Below the pieces are notes generated by a model. It was not told the DNA's origin, did no database searches, and saw nothing but the letters and a program-made list of their open reading frames with translations. This document shows positions 9,302 to 19,460 of a stretch of DNA of 21,228 bases, in pieces. The translations under genes were made by a program, and so were the position numbers. The first letter of the stretch is position 1. Every line of letters starts with the position of its first letter. The DNA comes from a virus: positions 1 to 21,228 of IMG/VR virus record IMGVR_UViG_3300033145_001112. The stretch is one strand, 5' to 3'.

Positions 9302-9884
9302 AGCCTTTGCCCTGTTTTGCTATGCCTCGCCTTTACCTTGCTTCGCCGTGCCCCGCCTTTGCATCGCTTCGCCACGCCGCTGCAATACGACGCACAACGT
9401 CGCCTTCGCTTTGCTTCACCGCGCAATGCCGCTGCTCAGCTTTGCTCTGCCATCGCAAGGCCTCGCCATGCATTGCCGCTGCCGCGCCGCGCTTCGCTGT
9501 ACCACGCAACGCAACGCTAAGCCGTTGCTGACCAGCGCCCTGCCCTGCCGTCGCAAAGCCCCGCAGCGCTACGCCTTCGCCACGCATTGCCGTGCTACGC
9601 CTTCGCACCACAGCGCTCCCGCCACGCCACTGCCATGCCTTACTAAACCATTGCCTCAGCACCACTGCTCTACGCCGCTACGCAACGCCCTTGCTTCGCT
9701 CCGCTATGCCTAAGCTATCCCTTCGCCCTGCTCTGCCGCGCTTTTTCCTCGCAGTGCGTTGCTATGCATTGCCCCCTGCCCTGTCGCGCCGCACAATGCC
9801 TCAGCTTTGCTACGCAAGACTTTGCCCACGCCTGCTTCGCAATGCTTCGCCGCCGCCGCTATTCCATGTCTCGCCTCCTCTCTC
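9302..9884 (-). repeat. Degenerate pentanucleotide repeat array, about 580 bases
   Basis: Gene-free stretch between the methyltransferase stop (9888) and the RAMP-like gene. On the plus strand GC recurs every five bases (TTTGC TATGC CTCGC, CATGC ATTGC, AACGC AACGC); on the transcribed minus strand the unit is about GCRNN (GCAAA, GCGAA, GCAAT). Individual units vary and phase slips by a base in places, so it is a decayed or diversified tandem array. Stop codons are rare in several frames on both strands, which creates long but low-complexity spurious frames. Purines dominate the variable positions on the minus strand. Confidence 0.85.
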
Positions 9885-10015: not shown

Positions 10016-10570
10016 CTAGTCTTGGTGGTTCCCAGTTATATTGCTCGCATCCGAAGGGAGCGAGCCAAGGCGTTCGTCCACTAACACGAAATGCGATCCA
10101 CATCTTATCTTTGTAAGGTAGGGACTGCCATATTTCTTGAAACGCTGGTAATGTTTCCCACACATGCCCAATTTCCTTGCAGGCTCTTCGCAAATTTTGC
10201 AGACCAATTGCTTCTTTAATTGCTTTTTCCCATTCTGCCAGTGCCATCGGGTGTGACAAGAGTCGCATAACGTCATCAGGTTCGAGGGATTGTTGTTGGC
10301 AGGGTTCCCGTCTATATGGTGGATATCCAAATTCTCTGTTGCTTTGCATATCTCGCAACTGTCGTTGCGTAAAACTGTTGCTCGTTTTAGTAACGCAGAC
10401 TTGGTTGGATGTTCCTTGCGATTGGCCATTCCGAAACACTTCATGTCGCAGTACTTCCTGCGAAGAAAGCAATTCATACTCTCCAGTACACCGTTGTATC
10501 TCTTGCGCTCCAGTTTTTTCCCGCAGAACTTGCAGTGCTTTTCTGGTCCCTGCTTTCTCGGATAAGCCAA
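10016..10570 (-). CDS. HNH endonuclease nested out of frame within the methyltransferase gene
   Basis: 184 residues from TTG at 10570 with GGAGG 8 bases upstream. It is cysteine-rich: C13/C16 (CKFC), C41/C45, C72/C75 (CEIC), the HNH core IHHIDGNPANNNPSNLMTLC with H84/H85, then CDSCH (102-106), and a final zinc knuckle CKIC...GMCGKHYQRFKKYGSP. All key residues are present. Such HNH genes are commonly found directly after phage methyltransferase genes. Here the gene lies completely inside the methyltransferase frame, which stays open behind it. The last 25 residues (after KIRCGSHFVLVDE) look less conserved and overlap conserved methyltransferase sequence. Confidence 0.85.
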   Translation of the reverse strand: MAYPRKQGPEKHCKFCGKKLERKRYNGVLESMNCFLRRKYCDMKCFGMANRKEHPTKSALLKRATVLRNDSCEICKATENLDIHHIDGNPANNNPSNLMTLCDSCHTRWHWQNGKKQLKKQLVCKICEEPARKLGMCGKHYQRFKKYGSPYLTKIRCGSHFVLVDERLGSLPSDASNITGNHQD

Positions 10571-11203
10571 CTATTCCACCTCCGTCCAGTGTGGTGGAAA
10601 TCCTTGCAACAGATTCACCCAGGCCGGATTGAGCCGACCGCCTAGGGTAGCTACATCGTTCAGATTGGGGGAGTGCCAATTCCCCGTCCGCTTCATTCTT
10701 GCGCGTCTTGATTCCGGTTTGTCGCCCATCCGATAATCCCTCGCTACCGGTGTTGGCCACATCCTTCCTGGGCTGTGCCTCGCTGCTTGATCCGCCGGCC
10801 ATACTCTGGCCTGTTCTTTCGCCTGATTGTATGCATTGATCGCTTCTTCCTCCAAGACAAATTTTCTTGTTTGCAACGATCCATACCCTATCCCTCCTAT
10901 GCGGGGCGCCGACGGCACAAGCCGGAATAACAACCGTCCCCGTTTCGTACCCGAGACTTTCCAACTCAGACAGCACATCGTCGAGGCCCATACTGATGAT
11001 TCCAACAGGATTTTCAAACAGGCACCAACGAGGCCTGAGTTCTTCAACAATGCGGATAGCTTCTCCCCAGAGCCAGCGGTCATCTGCCTTGCCTTTTCGC
11101 TTCCCGGCAAGGGAGACAGGCTGGCATGGTGGTCCACCGGAAATAAGAGTAATTGCTCCCACTCCTGCTTTTTTGACTGAATCCTTTGTAACACTCCGAA
11201 CAT
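10571..11203 (-). CDS. Methyltransferase-associated alternative reading frame (WPTP...GFP.HWTE type)
   Basis: A 210-residue frame overlapping the methyltransferase out of register. Its C-terminal half has blocks that I recognise from phage proteins annotated as methyltransferase C-termini: CLSWKVSGTKRGRLLFRL, MWPTPVARDYRMG, and RLNPAWVNLLQGFPPHWTEVE split as RLNPAWVNLL and QGFPPHWTE. The stop directly precedes the HNH start. No ribosome site is visible for the ATG at 11203, so its true start is unknown; it might be reached by frameshifting from the methyltransferase frame. Whether it is translated is open, but the pattern seems too specific for chance. Confidence 0.45.
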   Translation of the reverse strand: MFGVLQRIQSKKQEWEQLLLFPVDHHASLSPLPGSEKARQMTAGSGEKLSALLKNSGLVGACLKILLESSVWASTMCCLSWKVSGTKRGRLLFRLVPSAPRIGGIGYGSLQTRKFVLEEEAINAYNQAKEQARVWPADQAARHSPGRMWPTPVARDYRMGDKPESRRARMKRTGNWHSPNLNDVATLGGRLNPAWVNLLQGFPPHWTEVE

Positions 11204-14190: not shown

Positions 14191-14303
14191 GGGTCGACAG
14201 CCTTTCTTGTATATTTGCGCCCTGGCGTTTTGTTTCGCTTTTTCCAGGTATTTGCTATCGCCCGGCCCTGGAGGTAGAGTTTTTCTTTATCAGCGCTCGA
14301 CAT
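14178..14303 (-). CDS. Small basic hypothetical protein (41 aa)
   Basis: 41 residues starting MSSADKEKLYLQGRAIANTW and ending YTRKAVDPWAR; very basic. ATG at 14303 lies inside the end of the helicase-loader gene with AAGGAG about 10 bases upstream, and its 3' end overlaps the next GTG start. This chain of overlaps supports expression as part of the replication operon. Confidence 0.55.
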   Translation of the reverse strand: MSSADKEKLYLQGRAIANTWKKRNKTPGRKYTRKAVDPWAR

Positions 14304-15192
14304 GTTTCATCAACTCCTTCCTCCTTTTTCGCCTCCAGCTTCTGCCTTCGACTGGCACAATGTCACACATTTCAGCCAGCCTGTCTACCGCCGGACTGCC
14401 GATTCGTTCTTCGAGTTCCTGTATAGCACAGTTTGTGGTTACCACTATGGGCAGCATTTTCTCGTATCGTTCGTTAATTAGCCTGTAAATGTGTTCCCGC
14501 ACCCAATCCCGGAGTCTTTCAGCCCCCAGGTCGTCTATGATCACCAGCCGCTTTTCCAGCGCAGCAAGGTACGTCATAGACTCTTCGCCGGACTTAAAAC
14601 CCTGGATTAACTCGTTGACCAGGTTTGGCATGTTCACAAACACACTAGCGATACCCTTCGCCAACACAGCCCGGTGAATTGCTACCGCCAGGTGCGTCTT
14701 GCCGGTGCCGGGAGGACCGGTCAGCAGCAATCCTTTCGTAGTCATCCGGTGGAATTCTGTCGCGTATTCTTTGCACTTTTCAAACGCATTGCTATTCTCA
14801 TCCGTTACCTCAAAGGTGTCAAAGGTTCTTCTTTGGTAGCGCGGCTTTATTATTTCTTCGTTCTTCCTCTCGTGCCAGTACCGGCACTGACTGTACCGGA
14901 AACAGGGAAACTTATGCCCGTATGTTTTGCTGTCTGCTTCGTCGTAAAACACCTGCCAGCCTGGAGGTTCCATGATGCATCTGTCAATCCCGCTGCAGCC
15001 GCCACAAAACTTCGCCGTCTTAAGAGCCGCGTCAATTTCGCTGCTGGCAAGCTCAAGCTGGTCTTGCTGGTATACTCGCCCACCAAAAAGGACGATCAGG
15101 TCATCAGTCAGACCAGTAGAAGTCCTCTGGGATCGCGTACTTGGACTTTCTCTCGTCTGAAGGGTCTTGATTATCTGGTTTAGCTCCTCCAT
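14290..15192 (-). CDS. DnaC/DnaI-like helicase loader (AAA+ ATPase)
   Basis: 300 residues. Loads the host replicative helicase at the phage origin. The AAA+ core has Walker A GPPGTGKT (159-166), Walker B VIIDD (217-221), an N-linker FDTFEVTDENSNAFEKC and sensor segment VVTTN (250-254). The N-terminal region has five cysteines (C63, C66, C72, C97, C103), a probable zinc site of the kind used in DnaI-type loaders to contact helicase. ATG 15192 follows GGGGAG; a TTG two codons earlier is possible. It overlaps the replisome organizer by 89 bases, and the pair forms the replication module. Confidence 0.92.
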   Translation of the reverse strand: MEELNQIIKTLQTRESPSTRSQRTSTGLTDDLIVLFGGRVYQQDQLELASSEIDAALKTAKFCGGCSGIDRCIMEPPGWQVFYDEADSKTYGHKFPCFRYSQCRYWHERKNEEIIKPRYQRRTFDTFEVTDENSNAFEKCKEYATEFHRMTTKGLLLTGPPGTGKTHLAVAIHRAVLAKGIASVFVNMPNLVNELIQGFKSGEESMTYLAALEKRLVIIDDLGAERLRDWVREHIYRLINERYEKMLPIVVTTNCAIQELEERIGSPAVDRLAEMCDIVPVEGRSWRRKRRKELMKHVER

Positions 15193-16024
15193 TTGCAACT
15201 CCCCTTCTCAGCATTGCTTTGAGGTAAACAAGTGGGTTTTCCGGCACAAAACCGCTTTCTACCTGATAGCCCAATTCGTTTACGGCAAGCAATACGGCAC
15301 CATAGCCGTACTCGTTATAGAGCCGGCCTATGAAGGCGTGATCGCCTTTTTTATGTTTTTCTTCAGGAATTACCTGCCTGTAAGCGTCAACAAGCTCAGC
15401 GATAAGGCTGCTGTTAGTCAGCCGGTCAGAGGGGCGGCAATCGCGTTTCCTGGTTGTGTCTGCTACACCCGCAGAATAGGGGTGGCAATCGTGTCTTTTG
15501 CTCGTGTCTGCTACACCCGCACTGCCGACATCAGCCGGGGCCGAAGGCCCTTGTTCGTTAGAACAAGGTATATTTTTTAGTTTAGTTTTGTTTATGTTTA
15601 TATATAAGGGTGTATGATCTGGTGTACGATCTGGTGTACGATCTGGTGTACGATCTGGTGTATTTTTTCCACCAGTAGCTTGAACTGGTGTAATTTTTCT
15701 ACTAGCTGGTGTAATTTTTCCACCAGTTTTTACTTCCCCCAATTCAAAGCTTAGCAATTTATATTTTCCAGATTTTCTTTTCTTTACCCCAGATTTGTAT
15801 TCAAGCAGCCCGGCCTGTATCAATTTGTTCCTGTGCTTTATTAATGTTTTTTTTGTTATCTGGAGCTCAGCCATTAATCTAGAATTATCTATGGTAATCC
15901 ACCGCTCCCAATTGCTCGAGTTATGGTAATCCGCTATTACATACCATAGGGCTTGAGCAATTGCTTCGAGTGGATTGGTCCTAAGATAATTTCTAAAGGC
16001 ATTGATCTCCTTTAAATAATTCAT
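15104..16024 (-). CDS. DnaD-like phage replisome organizer
   Basis: 306 residues from ATG 16024 (AGAGGG upstream, rather weak). The N-terminal 95 residues form a winged helix (ITIDNSRLMAELQITKKTLI, HRNKLIQAGLLEY) for DNA binding. A low-complexity linker (100-200) includes TPDR repeats encoded by iteron-like DNA and, at about 169-198, an in-frame copy of the 85-bp repeat (GVADTSKRHDCHP, GVADTTRKRDCRP). The C-terminal domain (205-306) is helical, like the DnaD-type loader-contact domain. Followed by the DnaC-like loader, the standard pair in Firmicutes phages. It would bind the origin and recruit the loader. Confidence 0.85.
   Translation of the reverse strand: MNYLKEINAFRNYLRTNPLEAIAQALWYVIADYHNSSNWERWITIDNSRLMAELQITKKTLIKHRNKLIQAGLLEYKSGVKKRKSGKYKLLSFELGEVKTGGKITPASRKITPVQATGGKNTPDRTPDRTPDRTPDHTPLYININKTKLKNIPCSNEQGPSAPADVGSAGVADTSKRHDCHPYSAGVADTTRKRDCRPSDRLTNSSLIAELVDAYRQVIPEEKHKKGDHAFIGRLYNEYGYGAVLLAVNELGYQVESGFVPENPLVYLKAMLRRGVANGGAKPDNQDPSDERKSKYAIPEDFYWSD
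15436..15520. repeat. 85-bp perfect direct repeat, copy A
   Basis: Identical to 16059-16143. Each copy is two 37-base units separated by 11 bases. Both units share GGCAATCGYGT and GTGTCTGCTACACCCGC and differ in the 9 bases between. Copy A lies in frame inside the replisome organizer linker. Confidence 0.95.
15616..15726. repeat. Iteron-like repeats within replisome organizer gene, probable replication origin
   Basis: Four perfect tandem 12-base units (GATCTGGTGTAC, the last with T; 15616-15663), then two further CTGGTGTAATTTTT units 21 bases apart (15685 and 15706), and the inverse CCACCAG at 15669 and 15720. T-rich tracts alternate with the repeats. The 12-base period equals four codons, so the initiator frame is preserved (TPDR repeats). 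Lambda O and several Firmicutes phages likewise carry the origin inside the initiator gene. Confidence 0.7.
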
Positions 16025-16058
16025 TATTTTTTTCCCTCTAAAATTGTTTTCTTGGGGT

Positions 16059-16143
16059 GGCAATCGCGTTTCCTGGTTGTGTCTGCTACACCCGCAGAAT
16101 AGGGGTGGCAATCGTGTCTTTTGCTCGTGTCTGCTACACCCGC
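16059..16143. repeat. 85-bp perfect direct repeat, copy B
   Basis: Identical to 15436-15520. It lies just upstream of the replisome organizer start, and overlaps the end of a small frame to which it supplies the stop codon (16134-16136). Confidence 0.95.
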
Positions 16144-16301
16144 GTTACCGTCAGTTCTCTCAAACTCGCCAAGCGTTTCAGCATTTGCAGCTCCTGCAGC
16201 ACCGTGCCGGCGGTGACAACGCCCAGACTGTACTGGTACAGCGCGAATTCCAGCCGTTTTAGGTGGACGCGTTTCCATTTCCTTATCAGCTTTTTATCTA
16301 T
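16134..16301 (-). CDS. Small helical protein with apparent ATA start
   Basis: 55-codon frame reading IDKKLIRKWKRVHLKRLEF, then a leucine-rich helix ending LRELTVTRV. It looks natural, sits tightly between DUF6906 and the replisome organizer, and has a GGAGAAGGCGAGG stretch upstream, but its first codon at the expected place is ATA. A single G-to-A change would explain both the lost ATG and the DUF6906 stop that overlaps it. The stop lies in copy B of the 85-bp repeat. It may be silent or initiated inefficiently. Confidence 0.4.
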   Translation of the reverse strand: MDKKLIRKWKRVHLKRLEFALYQYSLGVVTAGTVLQELQMLKRLASLRELTVTRV

Positions 16302-16647: not shown

Positions 16648-17541
16648 TCAAGCAGGGCTAGAGGCGCTGTCTTCTGTTTCCGGTTCCCACGCGTCGCCTG
16701 GAGTCCAGGTTTCTTCGCCGTTTTTAAGTTTGTTCAAGTATTCGATCAGGTCGCTCGCTTCGTCTTTTACTAAGTCCCTGCTGGTATTCTTTTTGTATCT
16801 TTCCTGCATGATCGCCGTCATTGTGTCTTTGTCTAAGTCGAGTTCTTTCGCCATTGCAAAGAGTTTTTTCAACTGCTTTTCGGTCGCTTGACCGCCGTTG
16901 CTTTTCTGTTTTGGCTGCGCCTGTTGCACTTGTAGCTGTATATCTTCGTAGTCCTCCAGGTCCTGCGTAAAGATTTCGGATAAGCTGGCAACGGTTAGAA
17001 CAGCGTCTACCTGCGCTCTTTTTTTGGCTACCTTTAGGACTGTGTTCACCAGGGTGTATGGGTCATCGTTTTCTATCTGATACTCTGTGTATTTTCCGTA
17101 TCTGCCTTCTTTTTCGCGCTTTAGCAGGCTGTTTTTATCTACCCCGTCAGGCAACTTCTTCTCCGTTACCCAACGACGGGCATACTTTGCTTCTTTAGTG
17201 TTTGCATGGCCTACGCCTTCAGTAATTTTCAAATCTTTCTTGTAAAGGGTGCATTTTACCGTAAAAGCGAAGAATCCCTTATCATAATCCTGAACTTTCT
17301 CGATTACGTCGTACTCGCTTGTCAAACCCATCAACATAAGGATTTTTTCCGCACCAGGTTTGAGCAGGGTGGGTTTATCTCCAGTGCCGGGGATGATACC
17401 GTAGTCATGGTCTTTTTTGAGAGTTCTTTGCACTACTGCCTGAAATTGAGCGATCTTTTGCATTGTAGCTGACACCTGCTGAAGATCCACGCTGTCAATA
17501 ATACTCAGGGCTTTTTGTGCTTCTTGGGCTGGCACTGGCAT
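16648..17541 (-). CDS. Putative phage single-strand annealing / recombination protein
   Basis: 297 residues from ATG 17541 (AAGGAGG 7 bases upstream, TAATG overlap with the nuclease gene). Conserved features: LKKDHDYGIIPGTGDKPTLLKPGAEKIL split at residues 41-67, then TVKCTLYKKDL, and NTVLKVAKKRAQVDAVLTV followed by IFTQDLED (166-197). The C-terminus has a separate small helical module (ATEKQLKKLFAMAKELDLD, 219-237), as seen at the end of phage RecT/Rad52-like proteins. The family is widespread in Firmicutes phages. A role in strand annealing is inferred from the adjacent nuclease; I see no direct catalytic signature. Confidence 0.7.
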   Translation of the reverse strand: MPVPAQEAQKALSIIDSVDLQQVSATMQKIAQFQAVVQRTLKKDHDYGIIPGTGDKPTLLKPGAEKILMLMGLTSEYDVIEKVQDYDKGFFAFTVKCTLYKKDLKITEGVGHANTKEAKYARRWVTEKKLPDGVDKNSLLKREKEGRYGKYTEYQIENDDPYTLVNTVLKVAKKRAQVDAVLTVASLSEIFTQDLEDYEDIQLQVQQAQPKQKSNGGQATEKQLKKLFAMAKELDLDKDTMTAIMQERYKKNTSRDLVKDEASDLIEYLNKLKNGEETWTPGDAWEPETEDSASSPA

Positions 17542-19460
17542 TACTCTACCTCCTTCACGTCCAGCACCTGGTAGGTGCTGACCTTGATTAGCTTTGCCAG
17601 CACGTCCGCCGGCAGCTCTTTTCGGGCAAGTTTTGTATCGAACCTCTCGCTCCTGCGCTCTTTCACCTGCACCAGCCACCGCCCGGCCTGCACCGGGCCA
17701 CTACCAGCTTCTTTCAGGAGTCTAGCTTTGACTTCGTTCCTAAATTCCTCCAAGACCTTAATTTCCTCGTTCAACTCCTGGAGCGTTTCTACGGTTGCAA
17801 TTAAGTCGCTGCAGTTTGTTACTTCAGCCTTAGCTTTACGGTAATCCGGGTGACAATGATAAGTGTAAGGGCACCAGGGTGGTCTACAATTTCCAAGGAC
17901 AACTACGGTTCCATTGTACCTTGTAAAAATTGTTCCATTTGGTACCGTTACACACCATACTTTGCCATCATAATCAAATACTTCCATATGATTTGACAGT
18001 TTAACTTTGCGTTCTTGGCGTTTAGTTAAAGTTAAAGTGTAGTAAGTTCCTCCGGTTGTTGAAATATATGGGCCGCTTTTTTTGCTACTATATCCATGCA
18101 GTGCACATAATACTTGCAATTCATCTAAAACCCAGTGGTCACGTTGACTAATTTTTGCACTCCACACTTGACCTTTGGGGACTTTGGTTCTTGATCGGTT
18201 GTTTATATGCCCATCACCTTTAAGTAGAGCATCTAACCATGTTTCAAACTGTCGGTCATTTAATTCCCATACGAAAGCCGGAATGGCTATAGCGGTTCTA
18301 CCGTGGTATTCCATGATATATTCACTTGATGATCTGTTTAAAGTGAAACGAAGTAAGGTGTTCCGTCCTTCTCTTTCGTGTCGTTCAATGTGATATTGCA
18401 ACCCAAGATTATCTAAATGCCGTCTTATTTCTTCCGCTTTTGCATTTTCATTTTGGCTAATTCTGATTAGCCCGTTTTCTATGGTACCTTCTGCAGTTAT
18501 CCATGCTGATAAAGCAATAAGACTGTCTGACAGTTGGCAAGTAGAATTTTGAGAATACTTCCCGGAAGTTGTGAAATAGTAGAAGGCATCAGGAGATAAT
18601 TTGTTAATCTCAACTAGTTTATAAGGGTGTTTTTTTGCAGGTAAGCCCGAACTTCGTACTAACAATTTATGGTCAGCGGTTATGCAAAAACTAATATTGC
18701 GCCCTGTCCGTTTGTACATTTTCCCGCTATAGTCTTTAACAAAAACCATACATGGTTTCTGCCATTCTGGTTTCCCTGTTTGAATATTAAAAGTAAGTAC
18801 TTCATCCACATCTGTAAACTTGTCCCATGTTTTCCATCCTGTTTTTGTTAGCACTTCTGTTTCTAGAGATAGGCATTGCCAGTTATCTTGCGGGTTGTAC
18901 GGAGAGTCAATGTCCTCGTGGGCTTCGATTTTTGCAATAAGCTTCTTCAAACGTGCAATTTCAGCCGTCACAAAAGCTGGGTCGTGGACTATTTCCTCGT
19001 AGTGCATGTCCCACATACGGTTTCTTGGCGTTTCCTTGTTTCGCGCTACCAGGTAAGCCCGGTTTAGTCCGATGGCAGCCAGGTAAAGCTGTACCTGGGT
19101 GTAATACTGCGGGTGAGCCTCCCGAACGCCTTTTTCTCGAAGTTCCTGGAAGCCTCTCGCGGCCAGGCACTTGGCTTCGACCAGAAAACTTGCAAACGAT
19201 TTATCTATCGGTCTGCCAAGGCCGTCAATATGGCCTACCAGGAAGTTATCAAGGTAAACCTCTTTTTGTCGTTCCTCTATGCTATATGGGCCGCCAGGAA
19301 GGTTCTGTTCTGCCCATTCGAGGATAGACGGTTCATGCAGGTTTCCCTCAGCAAATGCCCTTTCGCTCCCTTCCCAAAGAGGCAGGCCTTCTACTCCCCA
19401 GGCCTCCAGCTGGAGGCGGCGGGGACACGCCCCCGCCTGTGATATGCGGATATATGCCAC
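17541..19460 (-). CDS. Cas4/AddB-like Fe-S PD-(D/E)XK nuclease interrupted by an intein
   Basis: 639-codon frame encoding a 310-residue spliced nuclease. The extein has CPRR (C12), HIDG with D79, the catalytic pair E95-A-K97 (LVEAKC) and QYYTQVQLYL, the order of RecB/Cas4-type PD-(D/E)XK nucleases. Three cysteines follow the intein at C525, C530 and C536 and, with C12, match the four ligands of the Fe-S cluster in Cas4 and AddB. Start GTG 19460 with AGGAGG 10 bases upstream. Next to the annealing protein, it would resect double-strand ends for phage recombination. The host protein is probably inactive until the intein is removed. Confidence 0.88.
   Translation of the reverse strand: MAYIRISQAGACPRRLQLEAWGVEGLPLWEGSERAFAEGNLHEPSILEWAEQNLPGGPYSIEERQKEVYLDNFLVGHIDGLGRPIDKSFASFLVEAKCLAARGFQELREKGVREAHPQYYTQVQLYLAAIGLNRAYLVARNKETPRNRMWDMHYEEIVHDPAFVTAEIARLKKLIAKIEAHEDIDSPYNPQDNWQCLSLETEVLTKTGWKTWDKFTDVDEVLTFNIQTGKPEWQKPCMVFVKDYSGKMYKRTGRNISFCITADHKLLVRSSGLPAKKHPYKLVEINKLSPDAFYYFTTSGKYSQNSTCQLSDSLIALSAWITAEGTIENGLIRISQNENAKAEEIRRHLDNLGLQYHIERHEREGRNTLLRFTLNRSSSEYIMEYHGRTAIAIPAFVWELNDRQFETWLDALLKGDGHINNRSRTKVPKGQVWSAKISQRDHWVLDELQVLCALHGYSSKKSGPYISTTGGTYYTLTLTKRQERKVKLSNHMEVFDYDGKVWCVTVPNGTIFTRYNGTVVVLGNCRPPWCPYTYHCHPDYRKAKAEVTNCSDLIATVETLQELNEEIKVLEEFRNEVKARLLKEAGSGPVQAGRWLVQVKERRSERFDTKLARKELPADVLAKLIKVSTYQVLDVKEVE
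17889..18875 (-). mobile_element. Intein with LAGLIDADG-type homing endonuclease (329 aa)
   Basis: Residues 196-524 of the nuclease frame. Block A: C196 LSLETEVLTKTGW. Block B: ITADHKLLV with T261 and H264. Endonuclease motifs: ALSAWITAEGTI (E324) and WLDALLKGDGHI (D416), both with acidic residue before Gly. Blocks F/G: VWCVTVPNGTIFTRYNGTVV then VLGN, ending at N524 with Cys525 as +1 nucleophile. The penultimate residue is Gly rather than the usual His. DNA of this segment is noticeably more AT-rich than the flanking extein. It appears complete and probably splicing-competent; endonuclease activity is inferred. Confidence 0.93.

Follow-up and report, generated by a model that had tools for sequence, protein, structure and literature searches.

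A recently copied 90-bp cassette of two 42-bp units, within and just ahead of a phage replication initiator gene

Results

The replication module and its putative intragenic origin

The window analysed here is the whole of virus record IMGVR_UViG_3300033145_001112 (21,228 bp, a linear and possibly incomplete record). Its replication module encodes a 306-residue initiator related to the DnaD-like and O-like phage replication proteins, followed by a helicase loader (Table 1); no phage with a related loader turned up in our search. A structural model of the initiator, built from seven sequences, shows a confident N-terminal domain, with pLDDT values below 50 for residues 96-202 and a mean pLDDT of 58.5. 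In the DNA coding for this linker, 12-bp iterons form an array beside an AT-rich tract, an arrangement typical of phage origins located within the initiator gene. Iterons and an AT-rich tract follow one another in the same order within the initiator gene of locus L041, and that of L042 contains repeats spaced 12 and 24 bp.

Table 1. Coordinates of the features in and around the replication initiator gene
Feature	Position	Strand	Remarks
DnaC-like helicase loader, downstream	14290..15198	-	
Replication initiator (DnaD/O-like)	15104..16024	-	ATG at 16024; PHROGs 19658, 186, 270, 678; relatives aligned; translation
Repeat cassette, intragenic copy	15431..15520	-	Initiator residues 169-198, AGVADTSKRHDCHP-YS-AGVADTTRKRDCRP
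42-bp unit 2, intragenic copy	15431..15472	-	H to R change at unit end
42-bp unit 1, intragenic copy	15479..15520	-	
AT-rich tract	15569..15608	.	12% GC; probable unwinding element; like layout in L041
Iteron array in initiator gene	15609..15727	+	CTGGTGTACGAT x3 and three CTGGTGTA repeats, then T/A runs
Repeat cassette, upstream copy	16054..16143	-	Directly upstream of initiator gene; 89/90 identical to intragenic copy
42-bp unit 2, upstream copy	16054..16095	-	
42-bp unit 1, upstream copy	16102..16143	-	
Small upstream gene frame	16134..16301	-	Ends TVTRV*, stop inside cassette; 1-nt deletion relative to L015

Anatomy of the cassette

The module carries two copies of a 90-bp cassette, and these two cassettes (four units) are the only ones in the 21-kb record. 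An initial sequence-only reading had reported that positions 15436-15520 and 16059-16143 are identical, and this 85-bp exact repeat is indeed present; it can be extended by 5 bp, across a single mismatch (C at 15435 versus T at 16058), to reach 15431 and 16054. It lies far beyond chance expectation, since the longest exact repeats in 20 shuffles of the window measure only 13-16 bp. The two 37-base units, 9-base core and 11-base spacer proposed in the same reading are replaced here by sizes of 42, 12 and 6 bp, while its general scheme, two units whose ends are conserved and whose core varies, is retained. On the minus strand, which is the coding strand, each copy consists of unit 1, the hexamer TATTCT and unit 2, giving a tandem period of 48 bp, and each unit has the structure GCGGGTGTAGCAGACAC-N12-CGATTGCCRCCCC.

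The units of the intragenic copy are the same at 35 of 42 positions; six of their seven differences fall in the 12-bp core and the seventh near one end of the copy. The terminal change is absent from unit 2 of the upstream copy, and the units there differ at six positions, all of them inside these 12 bp. Such clustering of the six differences has P ~0.003 under uniform placement, and five of the six are A/G changes. The corresponding amino acid changes are conservative, but only to the degree that the underlying nucleotide substitutions predict (P 0.43), and we do not invoke selection on the peptide encoded by the core. The unit ends (GCGGG on the left, CCCC on the right) are each constant across three different flank contexts, and the identity between the two copies stops exactly at the unit ends on both sides. 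The GC content of the cassette is 59%, compared to 44% for the whole initiator gene.

As the sequence-only reading had stated, the intragenic copy is translated in the frame of the initiator (GVADT...DCHP), which it occupies in phase 0. Because of the low pLDDT of the surrounding residues in the model, it probably sits in a disordered linker. It lies on the opposite side of the AT-rich tract from the iteron array. The upstream copy takes up most of the gap ahead of the initiator ATG. The start-to-start distance of the copies is 623 bp, and recombination between them would, as had been noted, remove this length together with the start codon (16024-16022), and the iterons as well.

The upstream copy and the sister phage L015

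The upstream copy also supplies the stop codon of a small gene frame, another observation of the first reading that holds (TAG at 16136-16134, inside the cassette). The frame ends there because, compared with its counterpart in the sister phage L015, it lacks 1 nt shortly before the cassette; the L015 version continues to EALGEFERNSPKKGG*. If the shift were undone, the upstream copy would be read in the GVADT...DCHP frame too. Nucleotide similarity to L015 stops at 16155, 12 bp ahead of the upstream copy, and picks up again at 14319; in the interval 14319-16155 L015 has a different replication module. Both copies of the cassette thus lie inside a module that the two phages do not share, and may have arrived together with it. 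The corresponding segment of L015 (5456-7307, against 14319-16155 of the window) encodes a protein of 438 aa, apparently an AAA-type helicase, and one of the breakpoints is near the cassette.

Searches for further copies

Nothing resembling the 90-bp cassette was seen in any of the nine related regions examined. When up to three mismatches were allowed, none of 6 related genomes or records contained the unit, the sister record with L015 among them, and its exact 21-base two-block pattern had 0 matches in the species-genome collection. The sequence-only reading had named confinement of the unit to this DNA and its absence from sister phages as the outcome that would speak against its proposal, and this is largely what we find; the absence from L015 is weak evidence, because its replication module is a different one. 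At the same tolerance of three mismatches, none of 113 genomes from the class to which the L010 host MAG belongs had a match (this may not be the class of this phage's host), and among 398 genomes from the same phylum (likewise possibly not that of the host) there was one, at chance level. This match, in L044, is within an apparent host gene and the rest of the unit is missing. The left half-site with up to two mismatches gave 31 matches in 28 of the 113 genomes, all with exactly two mismatches, and the reversed control also gave 31.

Three pattern scans of viral contigs returned 3, 2 and 0 matches, and all five (L001, L002, L003, L008, L009) were judged to be due to chance, being single half-sites or lying within unrelated sequence. 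Phage and plasmid records contributed two 19-base phage matches (E = 4) and nothing else relevant. A direct scan of 147 of the 154 fetched loci, the other 7 coming from the window itself, revealed nothing convincing. For the unit pattern, L044 scored 23/30 and L068 and L047 21/30 (loci preselected by the pattern), against 20/30 for the best reversed control; L010, which had not been preselected, reached 22/30 with a single site inside a small gene, again judged to be chance. With the junction pattern, two loci preselected by the half-site exceeded the best control (20/30), namely L001 at 24/30 and L064 at 21/30. At the peptide level, relatives appeared in 24 of the 113 genomes at E values up to 1 (best 0.029); in 20 of these loci (L019-L038) the cassette DNA scored 16-26, compared to 18-25 for 20 shuffles of L010, and they were rejected. 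Some of the searched collections may leave out records very near the window, and the negative results apply to the remaining records. Literature searches for iterons within genes and for small mobile elements of phages retrieved nothing, which is no proof of absence from print.

Tests for secondary structure and mobile-element hallmarks

The cassette DNA folds no better than its shuffled versions, and a hairpin of the REP type was rejected on this ground. At the RNA level no palindrome or stable hairpin is indicated for the two stretches that bear the cassette (z of -0.48 and -0.95), and an attenuator-like leader RNA is unsupported (z -0.48). Rfam has 0 matches in the window, and neither a known RNA nor a tRNA was found there. 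No convincing terminal inverted repeat was found, only GGGTG/CACCC and a bulged GCA/TGC identified by eye, and no convincing target duplication, the longest common words in the flanks being 4 and 3 bp long and offset. A non-systematic look at the window brought up no mobilising enzyme.

Discussion

Comparison with known systems

REP/BIME and MITE-type elements consist of short, paired units with recurrent ends. The cassette is similar in these respects, but it has no stable hairpin and no inverted pair, one of its copies is intragenic, and no family was found elsewhere. The closest analogue is provided by the Rickettsia palindromic elements (RPEs), short repeats that are placed in frame in unrelated genes (PMC10969869). 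Like them, the cassette is an in-frame insertion in a coding gene, in phase 0 of the initiator. However, RPEs measure about 150 bp, form several families and have 44 reported insertions in one genome, whereas the cassette comprises 2 x 42 bp, has no clear palindrome and is present in two copies in one phage, with none in the other collections (the genome of the phage's host may lie outside them). PARCEL repeats are DNA repeats in protein-coding sequence that have been proposed to move from genome to genome (PMC2996958); they encode 25-residue amphipathic tandem repeats, which sets them apart from the 14-residue units in a disordered linker considered here.

The iterons of lambda O and oriL in gene 38 of SPP1 are direct repeats that lie within an initiator gene and adjoin an AT-rich tract. 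The 12-bp array of this phage resembles them, while the cassette comes on top of this array and is much longer, positioned beyond the tract, only weakly similar to the iteron core, and also present outside the gene.

Possible origin and function

We tentatively favour, at somewhat less than even probability, the interpretation that the two 42-bp units form a discrete short cassette that was recently copied as a whole from one site to another within the replication module, in the manner of an in-frame insertion. Its observed basis comprises the near-identity of the copies, the positions at which the units end, the in-frame reading of the intragenic copy and a linker predicted to be disordered. 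The preference for a discrete element stems from the sharp, recurrent ends and from the fact that exactly one cassette was copied; the clustered differences between units fit conserved ends with a free core. According to this scenario, one copy would have settled in frame in the initiator's flexible linker, which presumably tolerates 30 added residues, and the other in the gap ahead of the gene. The cassette would then act as a tiny in-frame insertion element whose ends are defined. Machinery that recognises these ends, provided in trans by the host or the phage, would have moved it, and it would have no essential function of its own. Known mobile families are disfavoured, because neither a relative nor a hairpin nor a target duplication was found. 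The original suggestion of a recent duplication or an active element is thus borne out in its first part (89/90 identity), and its second part is possible but unproven. A mobile cassette would rank with the smallest elements that can spread through coding sequence, and would illustrate how the linkers of phage initiators gain new residues and DNA sites together; at present it is a well-defined recent duplication without an explanation. It is quite improbable, in our estimate, that it represents an undescribed family of ultra-small, coding-compatible mobile repeats with a 42-bp unit of conserved ends and variable core, moving as dimers and targeting phage replication modules, including the tolerant linkers of essential proteins.

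The main rival interpretation, which we consider plausible though rather unlikely, is that of auxiliary binding boxes. It regards each unit as two blocks of 17 bp and 13 bp, with spacers that vary, to which the initiator or some other protein of the phage would bind, so that the intragenic pair would extend the origin and the upstream pair would let the initiator repress its own synthesis. The copies do flank the origin with its iterons and AT-rich tract, the blocks are invariant between units, without even a synonymous change, whereas the core has changed, and the clustering of differences in the core fits binding boxes as well. SPP1 offers a precedent, as its oriL lies within gene 38 and has direct repeats bound by gp38 (PMC6316719). 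Moreover, every unit contains CGGGTGTA, which departs from the iteron core CTGGTGTA at one position, together with CCACC as an inverted half-site; this likeness to the iterons is weak and was noticed post hoc, with P of 0.027 for the half-site and 0.008 with its inverted partner among shuffles (0.036 and 0.013, respectively, among random 42-mers from the window). On the other hand, the spacers and the linker are as identical between the copies as the blocks, which argues that the second copy is a physical duplicate rather than a set of independently maintained sites, and the regions of six aligned relatives contain no comparable long repeat. If such boxes exist, they would tie an intragenic phage origin to the control of the initiator's own gene.

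The pair may also have arisen passively: 48 bp would have been duplicated in tandem in a linker that tolerates it, and phage recombination would then have copied the pair by accident to a non-tandem site, with neither function nor mobility; we regard this as unlikely. The tandem period of 48 bp agrees with it, the linker, predicted to be disordered, would tolerate repeats, the phage encodes recombination functions (an exonuclease and a RusA-like resolvase), and lambdoid phages with extra iterons in the O gene and a correspondingly lengthened protein are known (PMC7466680). However, it leaves unexplained why the copied segment ends exactly at the unit ends and why the differences between units are clustered. 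Finally, the repeat could be an artefact of metagenomic assembly, for which a linear contig that may be incomplete gives some room, but we consider this very improbable: the initiator frame crosses the intragenic copy into the C-terminus KYAIPEDFYWSD, matched by L010 (KYVIPDGFYWS), the upstream side is colinear with L015 up to 12 bp before the copy, and the copies differ by one mismatch.

Other features of the record

A Cas4/RecE-type exonuclease frame (17541-19460, minus strand) is broken by a LAGLIDADG-containing stretch, probably an intein. The frame of a C5 cytosine methyltransferase (PF00145; 9888-11219, minus strand) is overlapped in other frames by two ORFs on the same strand, one of 210 aa without a Pfam match (10571-11203) and one of 184 aa with an HNH motif (10016-10570). 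The adjacent segment 9303-9880 is of low complexity, with recurring short GC-rich words and a 26-bp x 2.9 tandem repeat at 9303-9378.
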